From a virus: a DNA stretch of 20,145 bases. The DNA is taken from IMG/VR virus record IMGVR_UViG_3300046690_000427, positions 1-20,145 of that record, one strand, 5' to 3'. This document shows positions 1-10,169 of the stretch, piece by piece. Made by a program: the position numbers and the translations under genes. Every line of letters begins with the position of its first letter. Position 1 is the stretch's first letter. The notes beneath the pieces were generated by a model. That model was not told where the DNA came from. It worked only from the letters and a program-made list of their open reading frames with translations, and did not search any database.

Positions 1-6
1 ACAATT

Positions 7-29
7 AAGCCGGCAACGGGTGCCGGCTT
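7..29. terminator. Terminator-like hairpin at the left edge
   Basis: A perfect 9-bp stem (AAGCCGGCA / TGCCGGCTT) with a 5-base loop (ACGGG) is followed on the + strand by GCATGTTTT. It probably ends a host gene just outside the window. The T-run is displaced a few bases from the stem, and the stem could also work on the other strand. It most likely marks host DNA beside the prophage junction. Confidence 0.6.
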
Positions 30-53
30 GCATGTTTTCCTGCTGTATTTGAT

Positions 54-77
54 GCGACTGTACCAAATTCGTACCAA
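54..77 (+). repeat. 24-bp direct repeat, copy 1 (candidate integrase site)
   Basis: It reads GCGACTGTACCA, then AATTC, then GTACCAA, and matches the copy at 215-238 at 21 of 24 positions. Each copy contains GTACCA twice, 11 bp apart. Direct repeats beside int are typical of integrase arm-type sites or a duplicated attachment core. The sequence alone does not decide between these. Confidence 0.5.
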
Positions 78-88
78 TCGCCTTGAGA

Positions 89-105
89 GCCTTATTCTAT
101 AAGGC
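89..105. other. Short inverted repeat, possible recombination core
   Basis: GCCTTA and TAAGGC are separated by TTCTA and lie between the two 24-bp repeats. Tyrosine recombinase core sites are often imperfect short inverted repeats with a 5-8 bp spacer, so this is a candidate core. It could equally be chance. Confidence 0.2.
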
Positions 106-124
106 CGCTTGGTGCCCAGGAGAG

Positions 125-141
125 GACACTTATCTGGTATC
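125..141. promoter_or_regulatory. Operator-like palindrome a (degenerate)
   Basis: GACACT-TATCT-GGTATC followed by CGT matches the dispersed phage operator GATAC(C/T)-N5-(A/G)GTATC with one weak arm. It lies 54 bp upstream of the better copy at 179-195, in the integrase promoter region. It may be an auxiliary operator for the same repressor. Confidence 0.5.
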
Positions 142-169
142 CGTTCGCCCCGAAACCGCGATGTAATCG

Positions 170-197
170 TTGTTTTGAGATACTAACATGGTATCAT
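170..197 (+). promoter_or_regulatory. Integrase promoter with operator b
   Basis: The candidate -35 TTGTTT (170-175) and -10 TATCAT (192-197) are 16 bp apart. The palindrome GATACT-AACAT-GGTATC (179-195) fills the spacer and overlaps the -10, the same geometry as at the minus-strand early promoters. Repressor binding there should block int transcription. Start to operator is about 75 bp, and the leader would contain the second 24-bp repeat. Confidence 0.55.
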
Positions 198-214
198 TTG
201 GTCAATTTAAGAGT

Positions 215-238
215 GCGACTGTACCAGATATGTACCAA
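215..238 (+). repeat. 24-bp direct repeat, copy 2 (candidate integrase site)
   Basis: This is the second copy of the repeat at 54-77: GCGACTGTACCA, GATAT, GTACCAA. It differs at three central positions and lies in the predicted int leader, 33 bp before the start codon. If it is an arm-type site, integrase binding here could also repress its own gene. Confidence 0.5.
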
Positions 239-270: not shown

Positions 271-1281
271 GTGGCGACATACCAGAAGCGCGGCGAGAGC
301 TGGCGCGCTATCGTGAGAAAGGCCGGCCACAAGCCGATCAGTGCATCATTCAACACCAAACCTGAGGCGGTGGCATGGGCTACGGCAACAGAGGCAAAGC
401 TGAATGAGGGCGGGCAGATCGTCGACGACAATTCCGTGACGCTGCCAACTGTCGCGCGGCTGCTGACGCGTTACGCGCTCGAAGTCAGTCCGACGAAGCG
501 GGGCGAGCGTTGGGAGGTGATGCGGCTGGAAATGCTGGCGCGCAATTTCCAGGTGTTCCAGAAGCCTCTCGCGCGATTCTCGCCTCAGGACGTAGCCGAC
601 TGGCGCGACGACCGCCTGCGCAGCGTCTCCGCTTCGTCCGTGAATCGCGAACTCAACCTTATATCTGCGGTGTTCACGACGGCAATCAAGGAATGGCGCA
701 TGCCGCTCAAGGAAAACCCGGTGCATCTGATCCGCCGGCCTAAGAGCGCACGGCCCAGAAAGCGCCGAGTGGACAACACCGAAATCCAGACCATTTGCGG
801 CGCTCTCGGGTGGGACATGAAGTCCGCACCTGAAATTTCGAAGCATCTGATCGCGTGGTCATTTGCTTTTGCCGTCGAAACCGCCATGCGCCGCGGCGAG
901 ATCCTGAACATCCGGCATCGTGACGTCAACATCGCAGAGCGCTATATTCATCTGCCGCAAACAAAGAACGACGATGCTCGTAACGTGCCGCTCTCGACGC
1001 GCGCAATCGACCTTTTGGCGCTGCTTTCCAAAGGTCGGCCAGACGATCATCTGGTGCCGGTGAACGCTGGATCGTTTGATACGCTTTTCCGCGAGGCGAA
1101 AAAAAAGGTCGGCTTGACCGACCTGCATTTCCACGATTCGCGGCGCGAAGCTGCTACTCGAATGTCGAAGTTGCTGCCGAACGTTTTAGAACTGTCGGCA
1201 GTCACTGGACACAAAACCCTCAAGATGCTGCAAATCTACTATGAACCGAAGGCGACGGACATCGCCGCCAAACTCGGCTAA
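271..1281 (+). CDS. int: Phage tyrosine recombinase (integrase)
   Basis: This protein integrates, and with a directionality factor excises, the phage genome by site-specific recombination. The 336 residues have the usual integrase layout: an N-terminal arm-binding segment (about 1-55), a core-binding SAM-like domain (about 58-145) and a C-terminal catalytic domain (about 168-336). The visible catalytic set is Arg207 (AMRRGE), Lys232 (TKN), His288 and Arg291 (HDSR), His314 (VTGHK) and the nucleophile Tyr323 (IYY). The start is a GTG preceded by AAGGGA about ten bases upstream, and the MATYQKRGESWRA opening is typical of the family. It is the only gene on the + strand. Its TAA overlaps the stop of the convergent AlpA-like gene. 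An operator-bearing promoter and two direct repeats precede it. Confidence 0.96.
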   Translation: MATYQKRGESWRAIVRKAGHKPISASFNTKPEAVAWATATEAKLNEGGQIVDDNSVTLPTVARLLTRYALEVSPTKRGERWEVMRLEMLARNFQVFQKPLARFSPQDVADWRDDRLRSVSASSVNRELNLISAVFTTAIKEWRMPLKENPVHLIRRPKSARPRKRRVDNTEIQTICGALGWDMKSAPEISKHLIAWSFAFAVETAMRRGEILNIRHRDVNIAERYIHLPQTKNDDARNVPLSTRAIDLLALLSKGRPDDHLVPVNAGSFDTLFREAKKKVGLTDLHFHDSRREAATRMSKLLPNVLELSAVTGHKTLKMLQIYYEPKATDIAAKLG

Positions 1282-1505
1282 GCAACAGTGGGCGTCCTGC
1301 GTGGGCGCCCACGCTGCGCAGGCGCCGCATGAGTGCTCTGATCGATCACCCAATCTCTGACCACTGACGGCACCCACCGCGGCCGGCCAAGGCCCGCAAC
1401 TCGCGGCGGAAGGCTGGCGGGTTTCTTCGTTACCATCGTCTGAATCGACGTCGGGCTGTAGCCTAAAAACTTCGCCAGTTCCTTGCTCGTCCACAGTTCT
1501 TCCAT
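1278..1505 (-). CDS. AlpA/excisionase-like HTH protein
   Basis: This is a 75-residue protein with a MerR/AlpA-type winged HTH. The segment LWTSKELAKFLGYSPTSIQ is the helix-turn-helix, and a later region reads GLGRPRWVPSVVRDWV. Small proteins of this fold next to an integrase are commonly recombination directionality factors. I infer excisionase from position; the sequence shows only the DNA-binding fold. The ATG at 1505 is chosen because AGGGGA precedes it by seven bases; a GTG at 1526 is possible. It is the last gene of the leftward operon from 5091, and its TAG overlaps the TAA of convergent int. Confidence 0.75.
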   Translation of the reverse strand: MEELWTSKELAKFLGYSPTSIQTMVTKKPASLPPRVAGLGRPRWVPSVVRDWVIDQSTHAAPAQRGRPRRTPTVA

Positions 1506-1515
1506 TTTCAATCCC

Positions 1516-1758
1516 CTAGATGTCACGCGCAGATGATTTCTGATGAACTGTGTCGTCTACTGGCAGCTTGAACAGTTCAACGTCGTCAGGCTTCAGGTGC
1601 AGAAAAGGGAAGATGCGTATGCAGCCTTTCGGGTTGTCGCGCTTCGCCATGACGACTCCGTTATCCAAGACACAAAGCACTGTGCATACTTCATTCTTCA
1701 GCCAAGCGCGCCGCTTGACGGTAATCCGATCGCCTGCCCTAAATTTGCGTTCGGTCAT
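1516..1758 (-). CDS. Small phage protein, SH3-like/KOW-type appearance
   Basis: This 80-residue protein has no name I recognise. It begins MTERKFRAGDRITVKR and is followed by hydrophobic beta-strand-like segments (NEVCTVLCVLDNGVVMAK). That pattern resembles small SH3/KOW barrels and recalls the 16497-16799 product, but this is only a visual likeness. Its ATG overlaps the TGA of the upstream gene (ATGA), which indicates translational coupling. The next gene, AlpA-like, starts 11 bases beyond its stop. Confidence 0.7.
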   Translation of the reverse strand: MTERKFRAGDRITVKRRAWLKNEVCTVLCVLDNGVVMAKRDNPKGCIRIFPFLHLKPDDVELFKLPVDDTVHQKSSARDI

Positions 1759-6624: not shown

Positions 6625-7016
6625 CGTGCCGCCTCCAGCAATCCGGCGAACGGATGCGCGCGGCCATTGCAAGCAGTCCTACGCGCCTTGAGTACGCCGG
6701 AATACTTGCGATAATGACGAGCCGCCGCCTGTTTGCGAGCTACGATGCGATCCGGCTCCGGTTTGTCGCGCTTGTCGCCGAGCGCATAGACGGCGCCCCA
6801 CAAGCCGCCCTTGCCGACCATACGGTGCCAGTCGCTGATGTAGACCTTCTTCGGCGTTTCGGCGCGCAAGTTGCGCAGATGCCGGCGCACGCCCGTTTCG
6901 GCGATGCCGACGAGCGCCTGCAGTTCGATGACGGTCATCGGCTCGTGGGCCAGCAGTTCGAGGATCTTGCGGCGCGTATCGTGACGCGCGCTTTGGGAAT
7001 TGATTTTGGCTGTCAT
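6621..7016 (-). CDS. Winged-helix DNA-binding phage protein
   Basis: The product has 131 residues. RRKILELLAHEPMTVIELQ, then ALVGIAETGVRRHLRNLRAE (about 15-55), is a clear ArsR/MarR-like winged HTH, followed by the wing KVYISDWHRM and GLWGAVYALGDKRDKPEPD. Proteins of this layout are common in prophage early regions and presumably regulate transcription. The target is unknown. The ATG overlaps the TGA of the cytosine methylase gene, and the stop overlaps the ninG start. Confidence 0.8.
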   Translation of the reverse strand: MTAKINSQSARHDTRRKILELLAHEPMTVIELQALVGIAETGVRRHLRNLRAETPKKVYISDWHRMVGKGGLWGAVYALGDKRDKPEPDRIVARKQAAARHYRKYSGVLKARRTACNGRAHPFAGLLEAAR

Positions 7017-8449
7017 GCTGCGATCCTTCGTGCGCTCAGTGCGGCATCAATCCGCGATCCAATGAATGCCATGCAGGGAACGGCCATGCTGTTGCCAAGA
7101 GCCTTATATCGTGGTCCGTCTGCTGCGCGCTTGCCCCGATATGGAACGTCTGTGTAGCCGCGCGGGAAGCCTTGCAGCGCTTCACATTCGGTTGGCATGA
7201 GGCGGCGAACAGCCATTCCTTGCAAGGCGCCGTTGTGACGGCGAGGACCGTTGTTCGCGTCAAGGGTTGCGTGCGTCTCGCTTAAGCGCACGCCAGACTG
7301 TGATGACTGGAAGGCAACAGGCGGATCGGATCGAGCTGGCAGCGTGTGCGATAACTCTGGAGTCGGCTTGCTGCGATTCGTAGCGCTCGTCACCTGGTTC
7401 GGATCGAACACGCAAATAGCGGGAACGATCGGCTGCCCTCTACCAGTTCCGTCCTCGCTTGCGTCGAATCCTTCCGCCTTCAGCGTGTGTGTGATGTCGC
7501 CGGTTACGCATACCGCAAGTGGTGCCGCGCGCGATCTGTCTTGCGAAGTGGTGAGAGCGCTCGCGCAATCCGTCCTCGAGAATGTTCCGCTCTTGTAGTC
7601 CTGCGCGACGAATGTCTCTGTGTCGAAGTCGAGACGCTGGCCGCTCGTCGTCAGGCAGGTTCCAACGTCGATTGATCCGCCAGTGTTTCCGCCGCCAAAG
7701 GCTTGCAGGTATCGGCCGCATGCTTCGTCGGTTCCGGGGAAGCCGCCTGCTCCAGTGCGCGATGCAAGGGTTCCGGCAGTTTCTTGCCCCGTTTCGCGGC
7801 TCGGCGCAGAATCCCGGCGCACGCCGTCGAACTCAAAAAGTACGTCTGCGGGATTGAAGTCCTTTCGAGCACTTGCGATAACGAACACACGGCGGCGTCG
7901 TTGGGCCACTCCGAAGTATTGGGCGTCAAGGACTCGCCACGCGACTGTACGCGTGGGTCCAAACACACAACCAGCGTTCGCCCATTTTTTCCCTGGCGGC
8001 TGGAGTTCGTCATCTTCTCCGGCAAGTGCTCCAAGAAAGCAGCCGAACGCGTTGTCTTTGGAGCTGAGCACACCGGGGACGTTTTCCCAGACGGCGATTG
8101 CTGGTTGCTTTCCTGCGCGTCCGCGAACATAGTCAATTGCATCGAGCAGCCTCACATAGCTGATTGTCAGTTGTCCGCGCGCGTCCGATAGACCTTCTCG
8201 CAGGCCGGCGACGCTGAATGCTTGGCAGGGCGTTCCGCCAACGAGAACGTCAGGCGCGGCAGCATCGCCGAGCAGTACGGCCCGCGCGATCTTCGTCATG
8301 TCGCCAAGGTTCGGGACGGTTGGGTAGTGGTGGGACAGTACAGCGCACGGGAACGGTTCGATCTCGCTGAACCATGCGGCATTCCATCCGAGCGGATGCC
8401 ATGCAACGCTTGCGGCTTCAATGCCTGAGCAAACAGATCCGTAGTTCAT
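7013..8449 (-). CDS. C5-cytosine DNA methyltransferase (phage Dcm type)
   Basis: This 478-residue protein methylates cytosine C5 in DNA with SAM. The canonical motifs appear in order. Motif I is CSGIEAASVAW (7-17). Motif IV is GGTPCQAFSVAG with catalytic Cys75. Motif VI is WENVPG (121-126). Motif VIII is QRRRRVF (183-189). Near the C-terminus are TECEALQGFP and GNSMAVP (motifs IX-X). The long variable region (about 205-405) contains Gly/Thr-rich stretches and DITHTLKAEGFDASEDG, a phrase typical of phage Dcm-like enzymes. The specificity cannot be read from the sequence. No cognate nuclease is present, so it is probably an anti-restriction orphan. Both ends overlap neighbours by four bases. 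Confidence 0.95.
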   Translation of the reverse strand: MNYGSVCSGIEAASVAWHPLGWNAAWFSEIEPFPCAVLSHHYPTVPNLGDMTKIARAVLLGDAAAPDVLVGGTPCQAFSVAGLREGLSDARGQLTISYVRLLDAIDYVRGRAGKQPAIAVWENVPGVLSSKDNAFGCFLGALAGEDDELQPPGKKWANAGCVFGPTRTVAWRVLDAQYFGVAQRRRRVFVIASARKDFNPADVLFEFDGVRRDSAPSRETGQETAGTLASRTGAGGFPGTDEACGRYLQAFGGGNTGGSIDVGTCLTTSGQRLDFDTETFVAQDYKSGTFSRTDCASALTTSQDRSRAAPLAVCVTGDITHTLKAEGFDASEDGTGRGQPIVPAICVFDPNQVTSATNRSKPTPELSHTLPARSDPPVAFQSSQSGVRLSETHATLDANNGPRRHNGALQGMAVRRLMPTECEALQGFPRGYTDVPYRGKRAADGPRYKALGNSMAVPCMAFIGSRIDAALSARRIAA

Positions 8450-8859: not shown

Positions 8860-9233
8860 CACACCCCCATGACCATCACGCCACAGCGGCCACCCTTGAC
8901 GATCTCGCCGCGGCAAACCAGAAGCTCGTCGATTTGCGAGTCGTCGTCATAGACGCCAGCATGGGTCAGCGCATCGAGCGCTGCCTTGACGCGGTTGTCG
9001 ATGTCGGCCACGCGCCGATCACGCATGCTGACGTGCATCGCAACACAGAGGCGCGCATCGCCAAATTTGATGGCCTCGCGCTCGGCAACGATCTCGGCTA
9101 CGCGCTGGCGGAAGTCTTTGCCTTCCTTCGTGATGTACATGCCACGCGGGCTCTTGCGCCAGTACGAGTTAATCGACGGCGGCAAGGGCAGGGTGAGGTA
9201 TTGGGCGACGCCCGATAATGGATGGTCTGTCAT
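8859..9233 (-). CDS. rusA: RusA-family Holliday junction resolvase
   Basis: The product has 124 residues, the normal RusA size. LPLPPSINSYWR (15-26) is the family N-terminal motif. DIDNRVKAALDAL (77-89) supplies the catalytic aspartates Asp77 and Asp79 and Lys83. DDDSQID (96-102) supplies the third acidic residue. It cuts four-way junctions, usually as a dimer with Mg2+. GGAG lies upstream of the ATG, which overlaps the TGA of the beta-class methylase gene. It is encoded between the methylase and ninB. Confidence 0.94.
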   Translation of the reverse strand: MTDHPLSGVAQYLTLPLPPSINSYWRKSPRGMYITKEGKDFRQRVAEIVAEREAIKFGDARLCVAMHVSMRDRRVADIDNRVKAALDALTHAGVYDDDSQIDELLVCRGEIVKGGRCGVMVMGV

Positions 9234-9982
9234 GCAAACTCCAGCGTCAGACCGCGTTGCCGCTGGCGGTCACTCAGAAGCGTTTGGTACTCAGGGTTTA
9301 GTTCGCAGCCGATAAATTTGCGTCCAAGCGTTTCTGCTGCGATGCCGGTCGATCCACTACCCATGAATGGGTCAATCACGATCCCGCCAGCCGGAACGGA
9401 GTATTTAATCAGCGGCGCGATGATGCCGAGCGGCTTCTGGGTAGGATGGACTGCTCTGCCATGCTCGTTTGCGACGTCGATCACGCTGCGCACCAAGCGC
9501 GGGCCGCCGTCCTCGCTGACGTAATGCCCTGCGTCGATATGGCCGGTATGAGTCGGCCTCGTCTTACGTCGAACTGTCTTGGCTCGAGCATCGTTAGTGA
9601 ATTGGGGCTCTTTGAATACGTCGCCCCATGCGCCGCGGTAAAATTGAACCGCATGTTCATGAACGCGTCGGAAGCGGTCAGCATGAAATCCGGAGCCGTT
9701 TTGCTTCTGCCACACGATGTCCTGTGCATACTTGAAACCTGCATCTTCCATATCGACGAACAGCGTCGCGATAAAGCGCATGCTTCCGAATACCCAAATG
9801 CTTGACGCCGGCTTAAGAACGCGTGCTACGCCTTCTATCCATCCCGCGCACCGGCTATCCCATTCGAGGCTTGTATCGCCATATGAAGGGTCCGTAATGC
9901 ATGCATCGGCTACTGCATCAGGCCACGTCGCCATGATTTCGCGACAGTCTCCGGCGTGCACCTTGTTTAACAGATCTTTCAT
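9230..9982 (-). CDS. Beta-class DNA methyltransferase (N6-A or N4-C)
   Basis: The product has 250 residues. The catalytic motif IV comes first, TDPSYGD (30-36), and the SAM motif I comes late, DPFMGSGSTG (204-213). This order defines the beta class. VHPTQKPLGI precedes motif I as in most members. The catalytic tetrad is DPSY instead of the usual DPPY. The start at 9982 is chosen because a GAGAGAGA run lies just upstream, and the longer frame to 10162 overlaps the neighbouring gene. Motifs alone do not distinguish adenine-N6 from cytosine-N4. It is the third methylase in the window, again without a nuclease partner. Confidence 0.92.
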   Translation of the reverse strand: MKDLLNKVHAGDCREIMATWPDAVADACITDPSYGDTSLEWDSRCAGWIEGVARVLKPASSIWVFGSMRFIATLFVDMEDAGFKYAQDIVWQKQNGSGFHADRFRRVHEHAVQFYRGAWGDVFKEPQFTNDARAKTVRRKTRPTHTGHIDAGHYVSEDGGPRLVRSVIDVANEHGRAVHPTQKPLGIIAPLIKYSVPAGGIVIDPFMGSGSTGIAAETLGRKFIGCELNPEYQTLLSDRQRQRGLTLEFA

Positions 9983-10169
9983 TTCTCTCTCTTTCGATGC
10001 ACTCGTCAATTGCGTCAGAAACTGATTTGCACCCTTCGGAGCCGGTTCCGATGTGGATCTGGGGTATGACATGGCGTCGCTTTGCCTCATTTCGCGATCC
10101 AACTGCAGGACCAAGCCGCAATCTCTTTTCAATCCACCGCCAGCGTTCAGCGTCTTTCTCATTACTCAT
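9918..10169 (-). CDS. Small phage protein with DAERWRWIEKRL start
   Basis: The product has 83 residues, beginning MSNEKDAERWRWIEKRL. It is related in style to the ERDAARYRWLDAQ segment of the 2790-3251 product. The middle segment SVSDAIDECIERERNER is helical. The last 21 codons overlap the methylase gene, an unusually long overlap for this window. GGGAGAGGG precedes the ATG. Function unknown. Confidence 0.6.
   Translation of the reverse strand: MSNEKDAERWRWIEKRLRLGPAVGSRNEAKRRHVIPQIHIGTGSEGCKSVSDAIDECIERERNERSVKQGARRRLSRNHGDVA

Follow-up and report, generated by a model that had tools for sequence, protein, structure and literature searches.

The attachment sites of CrimD and the other cluster K mycobacteriophages lie 5' of the integrase gene (int), have their core in the transfer-messenger RNA (tmRNA) gene and carry two pairs of 11-bp putative arm repeats, which were inferred from sequence; N-terminal residues of the integrase (Int) were proposed to set arm specificity in these phages (PMC3203893), and pairs of putative arm sites have been described in other mycobacteriophages (PMC10865867). 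In the Acinetobacter phage vB_AbaS_TRS1, a 29-bp putative phage attachment site (attP) lies upstream of int and is reported to recur at the borders of prophages in other strains (PMC5064099). In KplE1, the att region overlaps the promoter of the integrase gene intS, arm-type sites precede the gene and autoregulation was measured; negative autoregulation was also measured for certain other integrases, and 61.5% of the integrase genes associated with tRNAs are predicted to have it (PMC2951348). Here we describe the region upstream of int in the linear IMG/VR virus record IMGVR_UViG_3300046690_000427, whose whole length of 20,145 bases we call the window. Judged from its sequence, the region at positions 54 to 238 is, with a probability of about 0.93, the attP of a temperate phage, in which two GTACCA doublets would be arm-type Int sites around a tRNA-Leu core:

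54 to 77, plus strand: left (P-arm) doublet, putative arm-type Int sites, with GTACCA at 60-65 and 71-76, 11 bp apart.
109 to 127, minus strand: attP core TTGGTGCCCAGGAGAGGAC, the reverse complement of the 3' end of a tRNA-Leu gene (CAG in the genomes inspected).
215 to 238, plus strand: right (P'-arm) doublet, putative arm-type Int sites, with GTACCA at 221-226 and 232-237.
271 to 1281, plus strand: tyrosine integrase of 336 amino acids with a GTG start (PF00589, 2.2e-20; phrog_1, 5.7e-49).

This attP layout resembles that of CrimD, where two 11-bp repeat pairs likewise flank the core 5' of int. In CrimD, however, the two pairs run in opposite orientations, whereas both pairs of the window point in the same direction, and CrimD and its relatives are mycobacteriophages. 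Because paired 11-bp arm repeats have already been described in CrimD and other mycobacteriophages, we regard the attP of the window as a further case of a familiar arrangement.

An earlier note on this DNA had pointed out two 24-bp direct repeats with internal GTACCA doublets, and we found that both are present as described. The copies at 54-77 and 215-238 are identical at 21 of 24 bases, the mismatches (66, 69 and 70) all lie within the five-base centre at 66-70, and each copy is a tandem GTACCA pair with an 11-bp period; with one extra base on the left, identity reaches 22 of 25. When we shuffled bases 1-270 with dinucleotides preserved, none of 1000 shuffles gave 21 of 24 (the best gave 19). 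TGTACCA occurs three times in the whole window, each time in the attP region (0.65 expected; three or more copies in 2 of 100 shuffles). With up to three mismatches allowed, the doublet pattern has two matches in the window (1.48 expected by chance), which are the two repeats themselves, both exact.

We scanned viral contigs and found 22 related loci, 18 of which were aligned with the window to give 19 leader sequences (14 distinct). In all 19 leaders the core is separated from the left doublet by 32 bp and from the right doublet by 91 or 92 bp, and int follows the right doublet. The left doublet is present in every leader with a period that is always 11, and its first unit is a one-base variant in L004, L005, L008, L013 and L017; the right doublet is also present in every leader with a period of 11 or 12, and its first unit is a one-base variant in L019. 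The spacer within the right doublet varies freely among leaders while the GTACCA units are kept. In 11 family loci (approximately 73 kb), 53 of 54 TGTACCA copies fall within –350 to +150 of the core. Many of these loci also have extra single TGTACCA copies, near –208 from the core in 9 of the 11 (L002-L004, L009, L011, L012, L014, L019 and L022) and near –274 in 8 of the 11 (the same loci minus L014). Both positions are beyond the left end of the window, and these single copies may be further arm sites.

In the upstream alignment of the 19 sequences, the 19-base core is a nearly invariant block between the repeats, with phage genes flanking it on both sides. By sequence comparison, it is identical to a potential host attB, the 3' end of a tRNA-Leu gene. 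We found the 19-mer in 34 viral-contig stretches: 18 are family attP loci, 14 run into a tRNA-like TCGAACC and two (L028 and L045) do neither at that place. In 8 of the 14 TCGAACC loci, the 19-mer falls in a tRNA-Leu called by ARAGORN (anticodon CAG in 5, TAG in 2 and GAG in 1). Since CAG, TAG and GAG tRNA-Leu genes share this end, the 19-mer alone does not fix the isoacceptor. In bacterial genomes, the junction of core and tRNA, TGGTGCCCAGGAGAGGACTCGAACC, was present in all nine genomes searched (eight exact, G016 with one mismatch in the core), and ARAGORN called tRNA-Leu(CAG) at the junction in 10 of 10 loci fetched. In the 10.6-kb record L045 (1-10629), copies of the core lie near both ends and the right end carries a tRNA-Leu(CAG); this element seems to use the same tRNA core as the window phage.

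The position of the core bears on another proposal of the earlier note, that successive insertions at one site left the repeats behind as two att cores. The copies are indeed near-identical over 24 bp and lie 161 bp apart; however, the tRNA-identical core is a different sequence that lies between them, both copies are kept in all 19 leaders at nearly constant spacing, and each copy is itself a doublet of a kind that precedes int in 60 of 80 distant relatives (below). We rejected this explanation after the tRNA core was found between the repeats, and its remaining probability is negligible.

To see how far the arrangement extends, we looked at loci with integrases 35-44% identical to that of the window (the best 80 of a longer list of genome loci, which are not independent of one another). 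An exact repeat of at least 6 bases at an offset of 11, within 80 bases before int, is present in 60 of these 80 loci, where 1.1 are expected from shuffles and the mean in in-gene control windows is 0.25; no other offset from 7 to 30 exceeds 8 of the 80. The sequence of the repeated unit differs widely from clade to clade. The same-looking arm unit also occurs in opposite orientations to int, in L076, L088 and L092 as compared to L089 and L097 (TTTGTCCC versus GGGACAAA).

Phages and a plasmid with approximately 40% identical integrases have the same layout with other arm sequences. Doublets are present on both sides of the core in TRS1, Lodos, PAN70 and an Aquitalea plasmid, which are four of the five records in which both sides were read; Lodos is one base off in one unit and the int-side period of the Aquitalea plasmid is 12 bp. 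In Turba, the far side was read and has a doublet. The integrase of TRS1 (KX268652) is approximately 40% identical to that of the window, and doublets lie on both sides of its putative attP; in contrast to the GTACCA of the window, the TRS1 arm unit is TACGCCA, and its core is, by eye, another tRNA-like 3' end. The available part of the TRS1 paper does not mention doublets (PMC5064099).

Both ends of the distant prophage G030 carry a 21-bp core as well as a doublet of 20 bp that is identical between the ends at 20 of 20 bases; one doublet starts 30 bases before int and the other ends 45 bases from the core. The G030 doublets thus lie outside the duplicated core, the position expected of arm sites. 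Together with the tRNA-Leu core at 109-127 between the repeats, this supports the suggestion in the earlier note that the repeats are arm-type integrase sites around a core. The note had also proposed a search of the other prophage end for a matching repeat; the distant prophage G030 has one, and no lysogen of the window phage or a close relative was found. At the far end of G099 we found no convincing core duplication, and the G150 and G042 contigs end too early.

The two-ended layout also bears on whether the doublets could be operators, either of a phage repressor or of Int acting purely as a regulator of int, without a role in recombination. The right doublet is close to the start of int, and the relatives' extra single TGTACCA copies near –208 and –274 would suit such a regulator. 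However, G030 has a doublet at each of its ends, one of which is distant from int, and four of the five other records have doublets flanking the core; we consider the operator explanation highly improbable.

We also asked which domain of Int the doublet sequence follows. For this comparison, 97 loci were entered, and two short proteins (L096 and L120) and 15 loci without a doublet by the criterion used were dropped, which left 80. Left out before the Mantel test were L082, L084, L100, L114 and L132 (of L071-L150; their match did not start at residue 1), L068, and L165, L166, L172, L173, L177 and L178 (of L161-L180); the family leaders entered were the window, L009 and L013. In the Mantel test (56 loci), r was 0.451 for the N-terminal, 0.474 for the core-binding and 0.436 for the catalytic domain, and partial tests on the same loci gave 0.248 for the N-terminal given the catalytic domain and 0.215 for the catalytic given the N-terminal domain. 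Because the Mantel test did not separate the domains, we used a nearest-neighbour test on the 80 related loci, with pairs of at least 85% identity excluded. Neighbours chosen by the N-terminus have the same arm motif in 50 of 80 loci, those chosen by the core-binding domain in 41 of 80 and those chosen by the catalytic domain in 33 of 80, against a base rate of 8.3%. The catalytic count included insertion columns and is 39 of 80 when window columns alone are used; with window columns, 14 loci favour the N-terminus as compared to 3 (p = 0.013, relatedness ignored). Ten random 55-column subsets of the catalytic domain gave 34 to 46 of 80.

One change of arm sequence is between loci with GGGACA (14) and GGGCCA (7), in which the arm is shared with the neighbour in 21, 18 and 15 of 21 cases for the N-terminus, core-binding and catalytic domain, respectively. 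T3 and Q13 are present in 12 of the 14 GGGACA integrases, whereas Q3 and R13 are present in 7 of 7 GGGCCA integrases; T3 and Q13 also occur in L086, and the N-terminus of L091 differs. L10Y was considered as a third residue linked to GGGCCA and rejected, since L086 has Y10 with GGGACA. Between L115 and L105, the catalytic domains are 95% identical, the N-termini 70% and the core-binding domains 73%, and the arms are different. Taken together, these comparisons suggest that the repeat sequence tracks the N-terminal domain of Int a little more closely than it does the catalytic domain. A broader proposal, which we put forward as a speculation and would lean against, is that across a large proteobacterial integrase family sequence alone reveals the arm site, as a doublet with an 11-bp period just before int; that the bases of this doublet and a few residues in the N-terminal strands change together (in an L089-like group, T3Q and Q13R accompany the change from GGGACA to GGGCCA); and that the N-terminal half and its sites are exchangeable while the catalytic domain is kept, so that these pairs would form a natural recognition code of arm-binding domains.

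Among the matches listed in the open-licence literature, we recognised no description of a family-wide 11-bp doublet, or of its covariation, in proteobacterial integrases. The available parts of one further paper (PMC4111918) and of one on dusA integrases, which does not use the word arm (PMC4482086), contain nothing on doublets.

Downstream of int lies a gene whose product offers another possible ligand of the doublets:

1278 to 1526, minus strand: putative excisionase (recombination directionality factor, RDF) of 82 amino acids, convergent with int (phrog_66, 1.6e-6).

The match to phrog_66, 'excisionase and transcriptional regulator', is the third of 8 matches, and the product has no NCBIfam or Pfam match; TRS1 has an annotated putative excisionase at the corresponding place. 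The doublets could therefore be sites of this RDF rather than of Int: RDF sites are likewise direct repeats approximately one helical turn (10-11 bp) apart (PMC7498355), as are the units of the window at 11 bp, and some RDFs repress int promoters. However, the same doublet is present on both arms, in all 19 leaders, at fixed distances from the core, whereas the Xis sites of lambda are confined to one arm. The doublet sequence also appears to track the N-terminal domain of Int more closely than the catalytic one, and 7 of 12 printed automatic picks of the open reading frame (ORF) downstream of int are not excisionase-like by eye, yet their integrases have doublets. We consider RDF sites improbable.

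In sequence and predicted fold, the integrase agrees with the arm-binding-domain tyrosine integrases of the lambda/P2/L5 kind. R207, K232, H288, R291, H314 and Y323 are invariant across 46 integrase sequences and would be the RKHRH-Y catalytic residues, a role assigned from the motif. In the structure model (mean predicted local distance difference test score, pLDDT, 88.7), the N-terminus is predicted to have strands at 2-7, 10-15 and 23-27 and a helix at 30-45 (beta-beta-beta-alpha). Arm-binding domains are described as three strands and a helix (PMC8138268), and the fold of the Int N-terminus is thus predicted to be of the arm-binding type. In the fold search, full-length lambda Int (1z1g and 1z1b) aligns with the model over 355-356 columns at 18-20% identity; the root-mean-square deviation is 10-11 for the full-length chains, and the domain arrangement therefore differs. 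Profile A3 matches 5c6k (named Integrase), which we take to be P2 Int, as well as HP1 (1aih) and lambda Int (1z1b).

In the attP reading, each GTACCA doublet is probably occupied by two Int protomers, one helical turn apart, through their N-terminal domains, while the core-binding and catalytic domains probably bind the core at 109-127, so that Int most likely bridges doublets and core. Strand exchange would take place between the phage core and its identical counterpart at the 3' end of a host tRNA-Leu gene, probably the CAG one. Once the phage is integrated, its copy of the core would restore the tRNA at the end away from int, and one doublet would be left at each prophage end. The right doublet ends close to int, with 32 bases between it and the start codon, which suggests that bound Int may repress its own gene (negative autoregulation). 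In this respect the window resembles KplE1 intS/TorI, with an att region overlapping the int promoter and arm-type sites before int; autoregulation was measured in KplE1 intS, whereas for the window integrase we infer it.

Several observations weigh against this reading. The Mantel test does not single out the Int N-terminal domain. The exact 11-bp repeat is absent in 20 of the 80 distant relatives, and BgVeeders33, the fifth record with both sides read, has no far-side doublet. In G039 and G081, a 47-bp core at both ends is the 3' half of a tRNA-Val gene, and the far-side doublets are degenerate and were picked by eye; at the core of G030, ARAGORN found no tRNA. The core 19-mer also ends tRNA-Leu(TAG) and tRNA-Leu(GAG) genes in three viral-contig loci, and the isoacceptor is not certain. 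The IHF consensus, WATCAANNNNTTR, has no match near the core with up to one mismatch (the nearest is at 684), and a scan of bases 1-400 for the sigma-70 promoter consensus gave no match. Because no lysogen was found, attL and attR are unseen in the family itself. The first genome scan confirmed no relative, and the second gave the 80 distant loci described above. Among 144 genomes from a single genus the best identity was 45%, and 37 of the 144 have a match at E 1e-50. There was no match at E 1e-80 in 399 genomes of its order or 398 of its family, but that limit is so strict that G009's own match fell out, and an empty answer of this kind says nothing in the absence of a known positive.

The left edge of the window carries a further feature:

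6 to 30, plus strand: terminator-like hairpin, from a terminator scan and fold z; the sequence of relatives runs on leftward.

The earlier note had taken a terminator at 7-29 as a sign that the host border is very near. The terminator scan does not exceed chance (1 found against 0.6 expected from shuffles; fold z for 1-40 is –3.15), and all 18 aligned relatives extend to the left of window base 1. In the left flanks of L013 and L014, 5 of the 10 ORFs tested have a PHROG match, all five to phage-type families, with a tail assembly chaperone and a DNA ligase in both loci and superinfection immunity in L013. Because the relatives continue leftward, in L013 and L014 into phage genes, we rejected a nearby host border; base 1 is the end of a fragment and the region is an uninterrupted attP.

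The attP points to a tRNA-Leu gene as the probable place of integration and identifies the components required to reconstitute the reaction. The 11-bp doublets before int, with their clade-specific sequences, provide dozens of paired examples of integrase and arm site, and such pairs could make the choice of DNA by arm-binding domains directly testable and help to find prophage ends.

Smaller elements lie between the doublets. The earlier note had seen an inverted repeat here, which is present:

89 to 105, no strand assigned: small inverted repeat between the left doublet and the core (GCCTTAT at 89-95, ATAAGGC at 99-105).

Fold z for this stretch (84-127) is –1.75, and the inverted repeat is possibly a trailer hairpin or weak terminator that would lie just 3' of the restored tRNA in the prophage. 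In the same interval of PAN70 (L197), Lodos (L195) and Turba (L198) we saw, by eye, a longer hairpin with A- and T-rich ends, which may substitute for the terminator of the tRNA gene after integration. GGTATC/GATACC elements are present at window 134-143 and 177-197, including GATAC-N7-GTATC, with the GGTATC parts kept in the family leaders, and are a candidate operator of a repressor or RDF. Elsewhere in the window, family scans identified a Sak4-like protein, a DnaC-like loader, NinG and two DNA methyltransferases, the latter on the minus strand at 7013-8449 and 9230-10162 (C5-cytosine and N6/N4 type).
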